64,000 nt of DNA from Bacteroidetes bacterium MedPE-SWsnd-G2 (GTDB lineage: Bacteria > Bacteroidota > Bacteroidia > Flavobacteriales > Flavobacteriaceae). A program made the translations under genes and the position numbers. The notes beneath the pieces were generated by a model. It saw only the letters and a list, made by a program, of their open reading frames with translations. It had not been told where the DNA came from and searched no databases. Below, piece after piece: positions 10,979 through 34,172 of the stretch (position 1 is its first letter; each line of letters starts with the position of its first letter). The DNA is taken from NCBI GenBank assembly GCA_001874335.1, contig MPDE01000007.1, positions 62,001 to 126,000 of the forward strand, read 5' to 3'.

Positions 10979-12058
10979 TTAATTAATAATCTTTTTCTGA
11001 TGATTTATAGATTCTTGATGTATCGCTTTAAAAACTTTTAAAATAAATTCTTCACTTAGATTTTTGTCTTCTCCCTGCAGAATCATTTTACCCAAAATTT
11101 CATTCCAACGTTTGGTTTGAAGCACCGCAACATTGTGTTCTTTTTTTAACTTTCCAATCTCATCAGAGATTTTCATACGTTTACCCAACATTTCTATTAA
11201 TTGATGATCGGCAACGTCTATTTGGGTTCTACAGGTATTAATTTTGTTTCTATAATCGGCTGCTTCATCGGTCACCTTTCTAATCCTTAAATCTTCCATT
11301 ATTTGAATTAAAGTTGTAGGAGTAATTTGTTGTGCAGCATCGCTCCAGGCGTTATCGGGATCAAAATGAGTTTCAACCATTAATCCATCAAAATTTAAAT
11401 CCAAAGCCGTTTGACAAAGATCAAAAATGATATCTCGTCGTCCAGCGATATGTGATGGATCTAAAATTAAAGGCAAATCTGGAAACCTGTTTTGCAGTTC
11501 TATAGCAATTTGCCATTCTGGATTATTTCGGTATCTCGTTTTTTCGTAGGTTGAAAACCCTCTGTGAATCACACCAAGATTCTTAACATCGGCAGTATAA
11601 AATCGCTCTACAGCTCCTAACCATAATGATAAATCTGGATTGACAGGGTTTTTAATTAACACGGTTTTATCGGTACCTTTAAGTGCATCTGCAATGTCTT
11701 GAACCACAAACGGATTTACTGTTGTTCTTGCTCCAATCCATAAAATATCGATATCATTTTCTAAAGCCAAATCAACATGGTTAGCATTAGCTACTTCTGT
11801 AGTAGTCATCATTCCAGTTTCGTCTTTAGCACGTTTTAGCCACTTTAACCCCAAAGCTCCAACACCTTCAAAATTTCCAGGTCTTGTTCGTGGTTTCCAA
11901 ATACCTGCTCTTAATACAGTAGCATCGCTATCTTTAAGTTGATGAGCAATTTTCAATACTTGGTCTTCTGTTTCTGCACTGCAAGGTCCTGCAATTACTA
12001 AAGGATGATCAAGTCCGAATTTATTTAACCATGTTCTCAATTCTTTTCTATTCTCCAT
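10979..12058 (-). CDS. Bifunctional DAHP synthase / chorismate mutase
   Basis: A 359-residue fusion. Residues 1 to about 260 are a class I-beta (KDO8P synthase-like) 3-deoxy-7-phosphoheptulonate synthase that condenses PEP and erythrose-4-phosphate; motifs include GPCSAE (24-29), AGIWKPRTRPGNFEG and ILDPSHIAGRRD. About 265-350 is a type II chorismate mutase (YRNKINTCRTQIDVADHQLI, then an IGKLKKEH segment) that makes prephenate. The chorismate mutase domain commonly also serves as an allosteric module in such fusions. It is the last gene of the pheA operon, 10 bases after tyrA, so the operon covers the entry step and the Phe/Tyr branch. Confidence 0.93.
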   Translation of the reverse strand: MENRKELRTWLNKFGLDHPLVIAGPCSAETEDQVLKIAHQLKDSDATVLRAGIWKPRTRPGNFEGVGALGLKWLKRAKDETGMMTTTEVANANHVDLALENDIDILWIGARTTVNPFVVQDIADALKGTDKTVLIKNPVNPDLSLWLGAVERFYTADVKNLGVIHRGFSTYEKTRYRNNPEWQIAIELQNRFPDLPLILDPSHIAGRRDIIFDLCQTALDLNFDGLMVETHFDPDNAWSDAAQQITPTTLIQIMEDLRIRKVTDEAADYRNKINTCRTQIDVADHQLIEMLGKRMKISDEIGKLKKEHNVAVLQTKRWNEILGKMILQGEDKNLSEEFILKVFKAIHQESINHQKKIIN

Positions 12059-12068
12059 AATCCAAATT

Positions 12069-12920
12069 TTATTCTATTCCTTTTAAAATGGTTTTTATTG
12101 TATTTGTGTTTTCCATTTCTTGATAAACAGAAGGAAAACTATCTGAAGCTAAAAGCCCTCTAAAGTGTTTTAAGTTATCTATATAGGCGTCTAAAGCCTC
12201 AACTACATTTGTTTTATTATGACTAAAAATGGGAGTCCACATTGCAGGCGAACTTTTTGCCAATCGCACTGTACTTTCAAAGCCAGAACCCGCCAAATCA
12301 AAAATATCTTTCTCGTTTTTCTCTTCATTAATTACAGTCTTTCCTAACATAAACGAACTTATATGCGATAAATGAGACACATAAGCCAAGTGTTTATCAT
12401 GAGATTTAGCATCCATATATCTTATTCGCATGCCTAAAATCGAAAATAATTTTAGAGCTCTCTCTTGCAATTTAAATGCCGTTTTTTCAACCTCACAAAC
12501 AATATTTGTTTTATTCTTAAACAAATTATTAATCGCCGCATTAGGCCCAGAGAATTCAGTTCCGGCAATTGGATGAGAAGCCAAAAAATTTCTTCTATTT
12601 CTGTGTTTACTCACCAAATTACATATTTTCTGCTTCGTTGAACCTACATCTAATACTAAAGTCGTGACTTCAACATTATCAAGGATTTTAGGCAGGGTTA
12701 CTAACGCATTATCCACCGGAATGGCTAATATAATCACATCGGCATTCTTAATCTCCCCAATTGTTGACTCGGCATCAATTATACCTTTAGTCTTAGCTTT
12801 TGCTAAATGCTCTCGGTTAGAATCAATGCCAACAATAGTAATATTTGGATTTGACACTCTTAAATCTAATGCCATACTCCCTCCTATTAATCCTACTCCT
12901 ACTATATAGATTTTATTCAT
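12069..12920 (-). CDS. tyrA: Prephenate dehydrogenase
   Basis: A 283-residue NAD(P)-dependent enzyme that converts prephenate to 4-hydroxyphenylpyruvate for tyrosine. The Rossmann motif GVGLIGGS is at 8-15. The substrate-site segments ASHPIAGTEFSG and YVSHLSHISSF, with the family's histidines, are visible. No fused chorismate mutase or ACT domain is present; the mutase is on the next gene. The start overlaps the aminotransferase stop by one base (TGATG), showing tight coupling. Confidence 0.94.
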   Translation of the reverse strand: MNKIYIVGVGLIGGSMALDLRVSNPNITIVGIDSNREHLAKAKTKGIIDAESTIGEIKNADVIILAIPVDNALVTLPKILDNVEVTTLVLDVGSTKQKICNLVSKHRNRRNFLASHPIAGTEFSGPNAAINNLFKNKTNIVCEVEKTAFKLQERALKLFSILGMRIRYMDAKSHDKHLAYVSHLSHISSFMLGKTVINEEKNEKDIFDLAGSGFESTVRLAKSSPAMWTPIFSHNKTNVVEALDAYIDNLKHFRGLLASDSFPSVYQEMENTNTIKTILKGIE

Positions 12921-14074
12921 CAGCTTTTACTTTTTATTCTTCTAATAACCTCTAAAATATCGGCTTCTGCAGCGCACAATGACATTCTAATATATCCTAA
13001 ACCATTGCTACCAAAGACAGAACCTGGAGTAAAAAACACATTGTATTTGGTTAATACTTCTTCTACAAAACTCTTATCACTTTTACCAATTGGTAGTTTT
13101 GCCCAAACAAACAATCCACTACCATCTTTGTCAAATTCTAATCCCAACAATTCTGCGATTTCCCATAATAGTAACCGTCTACTTTCATACACGCTATTTA
13201 AACTATAATACCACATTTTTGAACTCTCTAAAGCAGCTATAGCCCCTTTTTGAACAGGATAAAACATCCCCGAATCTAAATTACTTTTCACTTTCAAAAT
13301 CAAATCTAAATACCTCTCAGCTCCTAAAACCATACCTACACGCCAACCTGCCATATTAAACGTTTTACTTAAAGAATTTAGCTCTATACAAACCTCCTTT
13401 GCTTTCGGATATTTTAATATACTCTTTGGGTTGTCATTTAATATAAACGCATACGGATTATCATTAACTATTAAAATATCATTGCGCTTTGCAAAAGCAA
13501 TCAAATTTTCAAAAAACACATTAGTAGCATTCGCTCCAGTTGGCATGTGTGGATAATTCACCCACATCAATTTCACCTTACTCAAATCCTGTTGCTCCAA
13601 TTCTACCAAATTAGGCATCCAAGAATTTTCTTCATTCAAATTATAATTAACAGGCTCTGCTCCTACCATTTTGGCTGCCGAACCGTAAGTAGGGTAACCC
13701 GGATTTGGAATCAAAACCTGATCACCTGGATTTAAAAATGCCATAGAAATATGAGAAACACCTTCCTTACTTCCCATTAAGGGTAATACTTCATTTAACG
13801 GACTTAAAGCCACACCAAATTGGTTATTATAAAAATCTGAAATAGCTTTCCTTAATTCTAAAATCCCTCTATATGGTTTATAACCATGAGCGCCAGAATG
13901 CACTAAACTTTCCTTTAATGCATTAACAACTCGCAATGGAGGCTCTAAATCAGGGCTACCAATTCCTAAATTAATAATTGGACGTCCATTTTCTTTTAAA
14001 AGCTCAATCTCCTTCAGTTTCTTTGAAAAAAAGTATTCTTCAAATTGTTTTAATCGTTCTGCTCCTTTAATCAT
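12920..14074 (-). CDS. Class I/II PLP aminotransferase (aromatic or aspartate type)
   Basis: A 384-residue fold-type I aminotransferase. The PLP lysine lies in NSLSKTFNMAGWRVG, and a VNYPHMPTGA segment matches the NPxNPTG region that holds the cofactor/substrate Asn. From its place between pheA and tyrA, with one-base overlaps (TAATG and TGATG) on both sides, I infer that it transaminates phenylpyruvate and 4-hydroxyphenylpyruvate (or arogenate-route prephenate). Sequence alone would also allow LL-diaminopimelate or aspartate aminotransferase activity. Confidence 0.88.
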   Translation of the reverse strand: MIKGAERLKQFEEYFFSKKLKEIELLKENGRPIINLGIGSPDLEPPLRVVNALKESLVHSGAHGYKPYRGILELRKAISDFYNNQFGVALSPLNEVLPLMGSKEGVSHISMAFLNPGDQVLIPNPGYPTYGSAAKMVGAEPVNYNLNEENSWMPNLVELEQQDLSKVKLMWVNYPHMPTGANATNVFFENLIAFAKRNDILIVNDNPYAFILNDNPKSILKYPKAKEVCIELNSLSKTFNMAGWRVGMVLGAERYLDLILKVKSNLDSGMFYPVQKGAIAALESSKMWYYSLNSVYESRRLLLWEIAELLGLEFDKDGSGLFVWAKLPIGKSDKSFVEEVLTKYNVFFTPGSVFGSNGLGYIRMSLCAAEADILEVIRRIKSKS

Positions 14075-14892
14075 TATTTCGCGCTTTTGTAAACTCCTAA
14101 TAGTTTAAAATCTTCTGCCATTAACTTTATTATTGCTTGGGCCTTTTCAAATTCTGAAACCTTATTAAAGGTAACATCTATAAAGAAAGAATAGCTCCAT
14201 GGACTATCAATTTTAGGTAAAGATTGAATCTTAGTTAAATTTAATCCACAATCACTAATCACATTTAGTACAGATGCGAGACATCCGCGATCGTGTCTAA
14301 GATCAAATTTTATAGATGCTTTATTCAAAAGATCATCTAATTCTTCATTCTTTGAGCTTGAAAGAATTATAAAACGTGTTTCGTTATGTTTTATAGTCTG
14401 TATACTCTCTTCTAAAACATCTAAATCATACAAGGAGGCCGCCTTTGCGCTGGCTATAGCCCCAACGTGCATTAACTTTTTATCATCTATGCGTTTAGCC
14501 ACTTCTGCTGTATCTTTATCTTCTACAAGCTTAATATTGGGGAGATTTCTAAAAAATGATTTGCATTGCAACAAGGCCATTGGATGAGAGTACACTTCTT
14601 TAATTTCAGATAACTTTTGACCTTTTAATGCCATTAAGTTATGTTCTACTCTTAAAAAGTACTCACCAACTACGTTTAAATTCGCCTCATCAATAAGATT
14701 ATAATTAGGTAAAATTGCTCCTGCTATCGAGTTTTCGATTGCCATTACACCATAGGTGCAATCTCCGTTGACAACCTTGTTAACTAAGGTATCAAATGAC
14801 ATGCATTCGGCAATTGAAGTTGATTCTCCAAAATATTCATTGGCCACCAAATGATGAAATGATCCTTTTATTCCTTGTATTGCTATTGACAT
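14074..14892 (-). CDS. pheA: Prephenate dehydratase with ACT domain
   Basis: A 272-residue enzyme that makes phenylpyruvate from prephenate. The dehydratase part (about 1-180) carries the catalytic Thr in NETRFIIL. An ACT domain (about 193-272) follows, in which the proteobacterial Phe-binding ESRP motif reads QSLP (LTKIQSLPK), a form I associate with this phylum. It is the first structural gene of the operon. The ATG is only 6 bases beyond the T run of the leader terminator, so expression depends on read-through. Confidence 0.95.
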   Translation of the reverse strand: MSIAIQGIKGSFHHLVANEYFGESTSIAECMSFDTLVNKVVNGDCTYGVMAIENSIAGAILPNYNLIDEANLNVVGEYFLRVEHNLMALKGQKLSEIKEVYSHPMALLQCKSFFRNLPNIKLVEDKDTAEVAKRIDDKKLMHVGAIASAKAASLYDLDVLEESIQTIKHNETRFIILSSSKNEELDDLLNKASIKFDLRHDRGCLASVLNVISDCGLNLTKIQSLPKIDSPWSYSFFIDVTFNKVSEFEKAQAIIKLMAEDFKLLGVYKSAK

Positions 14893-14898
14893 ATTTAT

Positions 14899-14928
14899 AA
14901 AAAAAAAGTCCCGATTTTCATCGAGACT
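14899..14928 (-). terminator. Attenuator terminator hairpin before pheA
   Basis: The minus-strand RNA folds AGUCUCGAU (14928-14920) with AUCGGGACU (14915-14907). This gives nine pairs including one G-U, closed by a GAAA tetraloop, followed by a run of U to 14899. It stands between a leader peptide and pheA, so it would end transcription before the structural genes unless the antiterminator forms. Confidence 0.88.
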
Positions 14929-14969
14929 AATATAATTTGTAGGTTAAAAAATTACATATAACAAGTCTC
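14923..14969 (-). promoter_or_regulatory. Antiterminator of the aromatic operon attenuator
   Basis: In the leader RNA GAGACU (14969-14964) is the exact complement of AGUCUC (14928-14923), the 5' arm of the terminator. Between them AUGUAAUUU (14957-14949) pairs with AAAUUAUAU (14938-14930) over nine positions with one G-U. This two-part stem excludes the terminator. Upstream, UUCUUUU inside the Phe codons can pair with AAAAGAG (the 1:2 hairpin). The leader peptide stop codon lies in the antiterminator, so a ribosome that reaches the stop would mask it. No folding energy was computed. Confidence 0.75.
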
Positions 14970-15029
14970 TCTCTTTTCGTTAAAAAAGAAGTAAAACCAA
15001 TTTTGATATGTGTAATTTATTGAGTCCAT
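14952..15029 (-). CDS. Aromatic-amino-acid leader peptide (attenuator peptide)
   Basis: A 25-codon ORF, ATG 15029 to TAA 14952. Nine of its 25 residues are aromatic, with a block Trp11-Phe12-Tyr13-Phe14-Phe15-Phe16 and further Tyr at 6, 8 and 24. It lies 60 bases upstream of pheA and is followed by mutually exclusive antiterminator and terminator helices. This is the layout of peptide-mediated transcription attenuation (known for E. coli pheA, pheST and trp). I infer that scarcity of charged tRNA-Phe, -Tyr or -Trp stalls the ribosome on the block, frees the antiterminator and turns on pheA-tyrA-DAHP synthase. The start context has no clear Shine-Dalgarno, which is normal here. Confidence 0.82.
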   Translation of the reverse strand: MDSINYTYQNWFYFFFNEKRETCYM

Positions 15030-15151
15030 TATGTTTATAATAACCGCTAATGTAATTATAATTTGAATAATATAAAACTGTTTATATTTTATTTTACAAT
15101 TATGACGTTTAATGAAGGTTAAGTAATAGTACCAATCTTTTAATTAATTAC

Positions 15152-15159
15152 TATTTTTG
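15152..15159 (+). promoter_or_regulatory. -7 promoter box for gldA
   Basis: TATTTTTG matches the Bacteroidetes -7 consensus TAnnTTTG and lies 18 bases before the gldA ATG. No convincing -33 TTG is seen at the right spacing. Confidence 0.5.
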
Positions 15160-15177
15160 AACAAATTTTGAATTCTT

Positions 15178-16071
15178 ATGTCCATTACTGTAGAACATTT
15201 ACAAAAAACGTACGGCGAACAACAAGCTTTAAACAATGTTTCTTTTTCAATTAAAAAAGGAGAAATTGTTGGCTTTTTAGGTCCTAACGGTGCAGGAAAA
15301 TCTACAATGATGAAAATTCTAACAACCTACATCAACGCCACTTCAGGTAATGCCAGCGTTAGTGGATTTGATGTTAGAGATCATGCCAACGATGTGAAGA
15401 AAATAGTTGGATATCTACCAGAACACAATCCGCTTTATTTGGATATGTATGTTAGAGAATATTTAGAATTTAACGCCAATGTTTACGGCATTTCCAAGCA
15501 ACGAATTTCTGAAGTGATTCAACTCACTGGCCTATCACCAGAATCTCATAAAAAAATTGAACAACTATCTAAAGGGTACAGACAACGTGTAGGATTAGCA
15601 AACGCACTATTGCACGACCCTGAAGTACTTATTTTAGATGAACCCACTACAGGATTAGACCCCATCCAACTTATTGAAATAAGACAACTTATTTCGAAGG
15701 TGGGTAAAGAGAAAACTATTTTTCTTTCTACCCATATTATGCAGGAAGTAGAAGCCATGTGCGATCGTGTGATAATTATTAAAAAGGGGGAGATTGTTGC
15801 TGATAAAAACCTTGACGACTTAAGAACTCAAAACGAGCAAACTATAATTGTTGAATTCGATTTTAGAGTAGAAGATGCTTTTCTTAAAAAACTACCACAT
15901 GTAAAAGCGGTAAAAAACACTTACGGATTTGTATATGAAATTAGCTTCTCTACCCAAGAAGATATGAGAAGTTCGGTTTTTGATTTTGCTCATAATAACG
16001 AATTAAAAATTCTTCAAATGAACTTGAAAAACACGAGTTTAGAAAGCTTGTTTTTACAGCTGACTTCTTAA
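15178..16071 (+). CDS. gldA: Gliding-motility ABC transporter ATP-binding protein GldA
   Basis: A 297-residue cytoplasmic ATPase subunit of the GldA-GldF-GldG ABC transporter required for gliding in flavobacteria. Walker A GPNGAGKS (35-42), signature LSKGY (130-134), Walker B LILDEP (151-156) and the H-loop His186 are intact. The stretches YLPEHNPLYLDMYVREYL and ESHKKIEQLSKGYRQ are as I know them in GldA of Flavobacterium, which separates it from general ABC-2 ATPases. gldF and gldG are not adjacent; in many species gldA is also separate from gldFG. It converges with, and directly abuts, the DUF2807 gene. Confidence 0.9.
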   Translation: MSITVEHLQKTYGEQQALNNVSFSIKKGEIVGFLGPNGAGKSTMMKILTTYINATSGNASVSGFDVRDHANDVKKIVGYLPEHNPLYLDMYVREYLEFNANVYGISKQRISEVIQLTGLSPESHKKIEQLSKGYRQRVGLANALLHDPEVLILDEPTTGLDPIQLIEIRQLISKVGKEKTIFLSTHIMQEVEAMCDRVIIIKKGEIVADKNLDDLRTQNEQTIIVEFDFRVEDAFLKKLPHVKAVKNTYGFVYEISFSTQEDMRSSVFDFAHNNELKILQMNLKNTSLESLFLQLTS

Positions 16072-22582: not shown

Positions 22583-22635
22583 ATTTGATATTAAAAATCA
22601 AATTGTCATCTAAAAGGCAAGAGTATTGAACTCAA

Positions 22636-22740
22636 GTTATCTGTCAAATTAATTAAAATTTGTAGAATGTAGCACCTACTTTAAATATAAAGGGTTGCTA
22701 AGGCTTCTATGGGTCTATTCCCTCTGCCTTTCGTGATAAC
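22636..22740 (-). ncRNA. SAM-I (S-box) riboswitch before metH
   Basis: On the minus strand P1 is formed by GTTATC (22740-22735) and GATAAC (22641-22636). Between them lie the S-box core pieces AGAGGGAATAGACCC, TAGAAGCCTTAGCAACCC and GTAGGTGCTACATTCTAC in the expected order. Downstream, GAGT-TCAAT-ACTC followed by TTGCCTTTT is a weak possible terminator or anti-terminator element. SAM binding should switch off the metH pair and metF. Confidence 0.92.
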
Positions 22741-22770
22741 AATTGATAAGTTAAAGAACTGTGATGCAAA
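22741..22770 (-). promoter_or_regulatory. Leader/promoter block shared with the metY riboswitch
   Basis: On the minus strand TTTGCATCACA (from 22770), GTTC and TAACTTAT precede P1. The same words in the same order precede the other SAM-I element (30240-30207). TTTG at 22770-22767 is in the right place to be the end of a -7 box with the transcript starting just after it. Confidence 0.5.
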
Positions 22771-29972: not shown

Positions 29973-30094
29973 TTTTCTTACTTTTTGAGTTAATAAATAA
30001 TTAAAACAAAAGTCAAAATGCGCCTTAAAGGCGTACTTAATAGAAAAATGTTATAAAGAAAATAACAATAATCCCGAATGGAAAATTGCTTTTT

Positions 30095-30206
30095 GTTATC
30101 TATCCAATGATATAAAAATCATTAAGTAGAATTTAGCACCTTCTTTAATAAATTAAAGGGTTGCTAAGGTTTCTAAGGGTCTATTCCCTCCACCTTTCTT
30201 GATAAC
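30095..30206 (-). ncRNA. SAM-I (S-box) riboswitch before metY
   Basis: On the minus strand P1 pairs GTTATC (30206-30201) with GATAAC (30100-30095). The core pieces GGTGGAGGGAATAGACCC, TAGAAACCTTAGCAACCC and AAGGTGCTAAATTCTAC lie between. A hairpin just after it (CAAT...TTCC, loop ATTC, GGGA...ATTG, then TTATTTTC) may be the expression platform. It should shut down metY and the MetX-AK-HSDH fusion when SAM is high. Confidence 0.92.
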
Positions 30207-30240
30207 ATTTCAATAAGTTATTGAACTTTGTGAATGCAAA
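30207..30240 (-). promoter_or_regulatory. Leader/promoter block shared with the metH riboswitch
   Basis: On the minus strand AATATTTG (ending 30237) followed by CATTCACA, GTTC and TAACTTAT parallels 22770-22741. A TTG lies 21 bases before the box as a -33 candidate. This copy also contains the inverted repeat TTCAATAA-C-TTATTGAA, which the other copy lacks. Confidence 0.5.
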
Positions 30241-34081: not shown

Positions 34082-34090
34082 TCGCTTAAA

Positions 34091-34167
34091 TCGAGGAAGG
34101 ATTTGACTGATTGCAACCTCTGAAACTGATTTATTAATCAGCTAAAACAAAAATGCTAAAGGACAGT
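34091..34167 (+). ncRNA. SAM-II-like riboswitch (long-loop form) before metK
   Basis: Pieces in the SAM-II order are present. P1 is GAGG (34093-34096) with CCTC (34117-34120). The loop ATTTGACTGATTGCAA compares with ATTTAACCGTATTGCAA of the known metX aptamer. The 3' strand is TGCTAAAGGA (34154-34163), comparable to AGCTAAAAAGG. Pseudoknot pairing is possible between GCA (34113-34115) and TGC (34154-34156), and between ACTG (34106-34109) and CAGT (34164-34167). A 6-bp hairpin CTGATT/AATCAG (34126-34141) fills the long loop. The position right before SAM synthetase supports it. Recognition is from memory of the motif, not a covariance search. Confidence 0.65.
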
Positions 34168-34172
34168 GTAAA

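Follow-up and report, generated by a model that had tools for sequence, protein, structure and literature searches.

The region at 14899-15029 on the minus strand of the window, which is the whole analysed stretch of 64,000 nt, very probably holds a ribosome-mediated transcription attenuator of the trp/phe type that senses the charging of tRNA-Phe and tRNA-Tyr. The central claim of the original prediction, that a leader peptide attenuates the whole operon, is strongly supported, because the leader is conserved, its complementarity to the terminator is matched species by species, and the control codons and the competing strand stand in a consistent geometry. Judged from sequence and from folding models, the leader is read as a real and widely conserved attenuator of a Phe/Tyr operon, with an amino-acid specificity that suits the operon. 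The mechanism of pheA leader attenuation has long been known in E. coli and is barely described in Bacteroidota, for which a worked anatomy and a distribution of classical attenuation are given here.

The leader ORF occupies 15029-14952 (minus strand), with the ATG at 15029-15027 and the stop TAA at 14954-14952, and reads MDSINYTYQNWFYFFFNEKRETCYM* on direct reading. Nine of its 25 codons are aromatic, as had been claimed; the WFYFFF block forms codons 11-16, and the control codons W11, F12, Y13, F14, F15 and F16 (14982-14999) were assigned by reading and by masked-ribosome folding. The terminator (14928-14907, minus strand) has nine pairs, one of them U.G. Its 5' arm, segment 3, is AGUCUCGAU (14920-14928) and its 3' arm, segment 4, is AUCGGGACU (14907-14915), joined by a GAAA loop (14919-14916). 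The arms are followed by a run of nine U (14899-14907), the first of which also closes the terminator. Six bases lie between the end of the U run (14899) and the pheA ATG at 14892. The sequence GAGACU at 14969-14964, within codons 21-22, is the exact complement of AGUCUC at 14928-14923 in the terminator 5' arm, and the two pair in the antiterminator. A second helix of nine pairs, 14957-14949 with 14938-14930, extends the antiterminator on folding and contains the leader stop codon in its 5' strand. Terminator, complementarity and second helix were all found as originally described. The 1:2 hairpin fared less evenly. In the window MFE fold segment 1 (14983-14998), the 5' side of this protector hairpin, pairs with segment 2 (14964-14978), which includes GAGACU; the hairpin overlaps the Trp-Phe-Tyr-Phe-Phe codons and sequesters GAGACU by pairing it with GGUUUU of the Trp-Phe-Tyr codons. 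It is convincing there, but is not conserved across species as an excluding structure.

The 181-nt fold of this part of the window is mildly unusual only (z -2.04), with 7 of 200 shuffles as good. No Rfam family (release 15) exceeded its threshold at 14850-15180; five matches at the leader obtained with permissive thresholds, all sub-threshold and to unrelated RNAs, were taken as chance. Elsewhere in the 64 kb window two SAM-I riboswitches and one SAM-II riboswitch are found (22634-22742 and 30093-30208 on the minus strand, 34087-34169 on the plus strand), structurally different classes for one metabolite lying close together.

A primary-sigma promoter is predicted from the -7 box TACATTAG (15047-15054, minus strand). 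The flavobacterial -7 consensus is TAnnTTTG at positions -12 to -5 according to the available passages of PMC9723704; the window box reads TTAG instead of TTTG. From the place of this box transcription would start at about 15042, 13 nt 5' of the leader ATG. Of 153 leaders, 130 carry the motif TANNTTWG in the 70 nt preceding their ATG; shuffled sequences give a mean of 16.6. Across the whole of locus L201 it was found nine times with 8.55 expected, which is no excess over chance.

Downstream, pheA encodes a prephenate dehydratase (14074-14892, minus strand, PF00800, E 2.6e-57), followed on the same strand by a class I/II aminotransferase (12920-14074, PF00155), by tyrA, a prephenate dehydrogenase (12069-12920, PF02153 and PF20463, with NF006307 above its cut-off), and by a DAHP synthase fused to chorismate mutase (10979-12058, PF00793 and PF01817). 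As regards the substrate of the aminotransferase, no NCBIfam cut-off was reached among the 25 matches listed. The gene names first proposed are thus those given by Pfam, with a chorismate mutase added to the last enzyme. The order pheA-aminotransferase-tyrA-DAHP synthase/chorismate mutase recurs in 79 of 80 loci; in the remaining one the contig is short.

The 110 pheA loci were reduced to 98 distinct upstream regions, the region of this genome (L001) included. Of these, 96, again including L001, have an aromatic leader ORF with a terminator behind it upstream of pheA, and the conserved short ORF that an alignment of relatives was expected to reveal is therefore present. In L029 there is no leader within 350 nt, repeat-like stretches intervening, and in L078 the contig starts inside the leader, the visible part of which looks like that of an aromatic leader. 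L023 and L029 have similar repeat-like stretches upstream of pheA, with a CCCGCC...GGCGGG hairpin; in L023 the stretch sits between the attenuator and pheA. Ten of the 98 regions failed the terminator regular expression or had no leader, and a covariance model, R1, was built from 58 sequences out of the 88 regions with a terminator found in this way. R1 matches 332 of 397 family genomes, its strict filters losing weak matches. Among the 150 R1 matches listed, 121 had a pheA row, and 120 of these matches lie on the same strand and at most 700 nt upstream of pheA, at a median distance of 24 nt between the two matches; the other 29 stood without a pheA row in the part of the listing carried over. 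The remaining one of the 121 is a second match in genome G048 that runs to 2 nt from the contig end, so that the gene downstream of it falls outside the contig. Twenty further loci ('fam2') were picked as R1 matches, so that their score of 20 of 20 does not count independently. Nine weaker R1 matches (E 0.006-0.6) were seen in the genome that holds the window. The surroundings of four were scanned for a short ORF with a terminator: three contained both, none of them with an aromatic block, and one was empty.

Complementarity was scored species by species by pairing the leader tail past the aromatic block with the species' own terminator 5' arm. For the permutation test one species was kept per distinct arm start (39 of 154), misread arms such as that of L081 being retained. 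Over the 39 arms the mean score with the own partner was 17.15, compared with 13.00 for permuted partners (sd 0.46, maximum 14.77), and none of 2000 permutations was as high. For example, CGAGACCTT pairs with AAGGTCTCG in L030, CGAGGCTTT with AAAGCCTCG in L189, CAGGGCTTT with AAAGTCCTG in L157, and AGGCGGGA with TCCCGCCT in L163. At core position 3, 107 of 149 leaders have an A-U pair and 39 a G-C pair, in a register that was picked by best pairing; for this reason the permutation serves as the fair control. Covariation of the antiterminator inside the family is modest: 85.2% of cells are paired versus 84.0% after shuffling (1 of 500). Slid versions of the helix pair in at most 47.3% of cells; five of the six show as many or more double-change pairs, and all six show more double-change cells. 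The within-family signal is weak because the antiterminator helix hardly varies. The covariation expected in three helices was therefore obtained in part, as a matched leader tail and terminator arm, but is modest within the family and does not extend to a general 1:2 hairpin. Unusual terminator arms with pairing leader strands were noted in L150, L151 and L235-L239 (AAGTTCCG; AATCCTGA, AATCTCGA, AATCCCGA; AAAGCCTCG), natural changes that are useful for a compensatory test.

The effect of ribosome position was modelled by folding the RNA up to the end of the terminator 5' arm with 12 nt masked from the start of the A-site codon, for the 153 of 154 leaders with a pairing of at least five; the 12-nt ribosome edge is an assumption, and masks of 9-15 nt move the drop described below by about one codon either way. 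With the ribosome stalled at codons 2 to 17 of the window leader, the antiterminator is predicted with a probability of 0.97-1.00 at 37°C, falling to 0.01 or less with the ribosome at codon 18 onward. Over the 153 leaders at 25°C the mean P(2:3) stands at 0.98 with the ribosome at the last aromatic codon, and at 0.90, 0.17 and 0.02 one, two and three codons further on. The antiterminator strand starts 6-14 nt past the last aromatic codon in 150 of the 153, most commonly at 11 nt. From this profile and spacing, the Phe, Tyr and Trp codons of the window leader as far as codon 16 should each be able to trigger readthrough, and Tyr 24, which lies behind the switch point, should not.

Without a ribosome the window antiterminator is predicted to be mostly unformed (P 0.20 at 37°C and 0.03 at 20°C). 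Over the 153 leaders at 25°C its mean P is 0.76 and its median 0.96. The 1:2 protector step is therefore not general, since in most relatives the antiterminator is predicted to form without a ribosome. Termination in untranslated leaders is accordingly doubtful for most relatives in these models, unless early folding of segment 1 prevents the antiterminator. When the complete window leader was folded at equilibrium with the ribosome masked, the terminator formed at every stall position; being uninformative, this approach was replaced by the folding of nascent RNA to the terminator 5' arm. The window antiterminator hairpin has -8.3 kcal/mol versus -12.1 for the terminator, and the means over 58 aligned leaders are balanced (-13.7 and -13.3 kcal/mol, respectively). 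Because the window terminator is the stronger and wins at equilibrium, the switch would have to be kinetic, with the antiterminator forming first. Attenuation in E. coli is likewise held to rest on the antiterminator forming first.

From these elements we infer the following course of events. Transcription would start just 5' of the leader ORF, at the predicted promoter, and a ribosome would translate the leader behind the polymerase. With Phe- and Tyr-tRNA plentiful, the ribosome would pass the aromatic block and cover GAGACU, leaving AGUCUC to form the 3:4 terminator, and transcription would stop before pheA. A ribosome waiting for Phe- or Tyr-tRNA at codon 16 or earlier would have its leading edge short of GAGACU. 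The free GAGACU could then pair with AGUCUC before the terminator 3' arm is made, and readthrough into pheA-aminotransferase-tyrA-DAHP synthase/chorismate mutase would induce the operon. A shortage of Phe or of Tyr alone would suffice, as in an OR gate, and such a gate would suit an operon whose enzymes serve the two branches and the entry to the pathway. Trp codons, where present, could add to the Phe/Tyr gate; they are not conserved.

Three other explanations of the arrangement were weighed against transcription attenuation. That an ordinary or constitutive terminator merely follows a chance short ORF in T-rich DNA, rich in Phe (TTT/TTC) and Tyr (TAT/TAC) codons, is scarcely credible. The region is A+T rich, aromatic codons are cheap in it, and 17 of 3000 shuffles of the window sequence give at least six aromatics in eight residues; but such a block is present in 95 of the 98 distinct upstream regions, against a mean of 0.8 after dinucleotide shuffling and none on the opposite strand. 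When the 285-nt intergenic region was dinucleotide-shuffled 3000 times, an ORF of the window type, with at most 30 codons, at least six aromatics in eight and at least nine in all, arose three times. The species-matched complementarity contradicts a chance ORF, and the spacing resembles that of E. coli pheL; on these comparisons a chance origin of the leader and terminator in the window is judged untenable. A T-box, a riboswitch or a protein-binding attenuator with an incidental ORF would also have a structured 5' region with a terminator, a feature common to all these classes, but the leader holds no Rfam family at threshold and its conserved part consists of a codon block and competing helices, and this reading can hardly be entertained. 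Translational attenuation, in which the 3:4 hairpin and the U run would block ribosome binding at pheA and the leader ribosome would control exposure of the start, appears quite improbable. In 41 of 96 family loci the U run does come within 0-8 nt of the nearest pheA start codon (six in the window), but the gap is 12-174 nt in the other 55, and more than 30 nt in 44, with hairpin and U run alike; moreover, nine pairs followed by nine U make a textbook intrinsic terminator. A translational block may act in addition to termination. All 41 loci with the 0-8 nt gap use ATG, and the hairpin there may also hinder initiation; the nearest in-frame pheA start is TTG or GTG in 43 of the 96 loci, where the gap is longer.

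Within transcription attenuation, the amino acids sensed have to be considered separately. The original prediction had one leader sensing Phe, Tyr and Trp charging together, a claim that is weakened here. In the window leader W11 falls within the active stretch, with P(2:3)=1.00, and DAHP synthase also feeds Trp synthesis; but Phe and Tyr are each present in all 154 leaders, whereas Trp is found in 87 (61 of 96, 12 of 20 and 14 of 38 by set). The choice of leaders by aromatic density favours the Phe and Tyr counts, yet it would count Trp equally. Trp is optional in the pheA leader, and trpE mostly has a Trp leader of its own, including in this genome, where it reads MNSNLNHTWWWNFRNSIS and is followed by a terminator (L253). 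Among 22 trpE-like loci from this genome and its relatives, being those examined of 30 fetched and with trpE identity given by a Pfam match alone, 19 have a leader with WWW, two have WW, and in one none was found; most of the Trp leaders before trpE-like genes have a terminator (L249-L270). Trp co-sensing as a conserved property was rejected on these two observations, and equal sensing of all three amino acids is unlikely. Trp codons, where present, may still contribute to sensing by the pheA leader. Since Trp has its own sensor, a Phe-or-Tyr gate is the best reading of the pheA leader. A leader in which three or more of eight residues are His precedes hisG at 15 of 15 loci, which were found in 21 genomes, and 13 of these have a terminator by strict search (L279-L293, with L292 from this genome).

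Over the phylum, the class and a few more members of the family, a leader with a terminator was found in 38 of 70 pheA upstream regions, and the remaining 32 regions gave no leader; the same rule gave a mean of 0.1 after shuffling and two on the opposite strand. By kinship, the leader was present in 12 of 12 regions from the same family, 0 of 2 from another family of the same order, 23 of 43 from other families of the same class, and 3 of 13 from other classes of Bacteroidota. The figures for the class cover the 48 of 158 class genomes in which the query found pheA. L176 and L223 are weak single cases among the phylum leaders, and L177 has an aromatic ORF without a perfect hairpin, a kind of case that the strict terminator search misses. 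A wider proposal is put forward tentatively, as possible and somewhat short of probable. The Phe-or-Tyr OR gate might be ancestral to the class Bacteroidia, with parallel attenuators for Trp and His. Amino-acid control through ribosome-coupled transcription might then be general in a phylum that initiates translation without reliance on Shine-Dalgarno sequences, and where the terminator abuts the pheA start (about four in ten flavobacterial loci) it may also switch translation.

As regards the literature, leader-peptide systems were stated in 2010 to be known only in Proteobacteria and Actinobacteria, to which Firmicutes were added, in the portion of PMC2965389 available. Leader-like short ORFs are reported for B. 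thetaiotaomicron, with none before pheA among those in the accessible part of PMC7366714, and a pheA leader of the window type is not described in the accessible parts of PMC4833913 and PMC8305728. The passages available from PMC9723704 (2021) report strong clues that leader-peptide attenuators precede amino-acid operons of F. psychrophilum and name conserved elements before pheA, hisG and other genes; they also describe unusual promoters and initiation signals in Bacteroidota. The suggestion that a mixed-aromatic attenuator in flavobacteria may be undescribed is weakened accordingly. Nothing closer than PMC9723704 was found in the open-licence literature searched. For attenuation a ribosome has to follow the polymerase closely, and the leaders therefore make transcription-translation coupling directly testable in Bacteroidota. 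The leaders also suggest that further unannotated short ORFs preceding operons for amino acids are sensors.

The nearest parallel among flavobacteria is the F. psychrophilum element, which like that of the window is structured, lies upstream of pheA and is conserved in other Flavobacteriaceae; the available passages of PMC9723704 give no peptide, specificity, alternative helices or distribution for it and do not state it to be a leader-peptide case. The trpE-like and hisG leaders of this genome and its relatives also combine a short ORF, carrying a WWW or His block, mostly with a terminator, but their control blocks are for a single amino acid, unlike that of the pheA leader. In E. coli, multivalent leaders such as ilvL and thrL each carry control codons for two or more amino acids and govern a branched pathway. 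A mixed sensor is hence a known idea; ilvL and thrL involve other amino acids and other operons. Closest in mechanism is E. coli pheL-pheA, where an aromatic leader peptide likewise precedes pheA, with a 3:4 terminator and a strand complementary to the terminator 5' arm. The same scoring finds GGGAGGC/GCCTCCC there, 8 nt past the last Phe codon, compared with a commonest value of 11 nt in the family. The differences are that pheL has Phe and neither Tyr nor Trp, whereas the window leader has all three; that the complementary strand follows the stop codon in pheL and lies inside the ORF, at codons 21-22, in the window; and that tyrA and aroF lie on the opposite strand in E. coli, whereas in the window tyrA and the DAHP synthase gene follow pheA.
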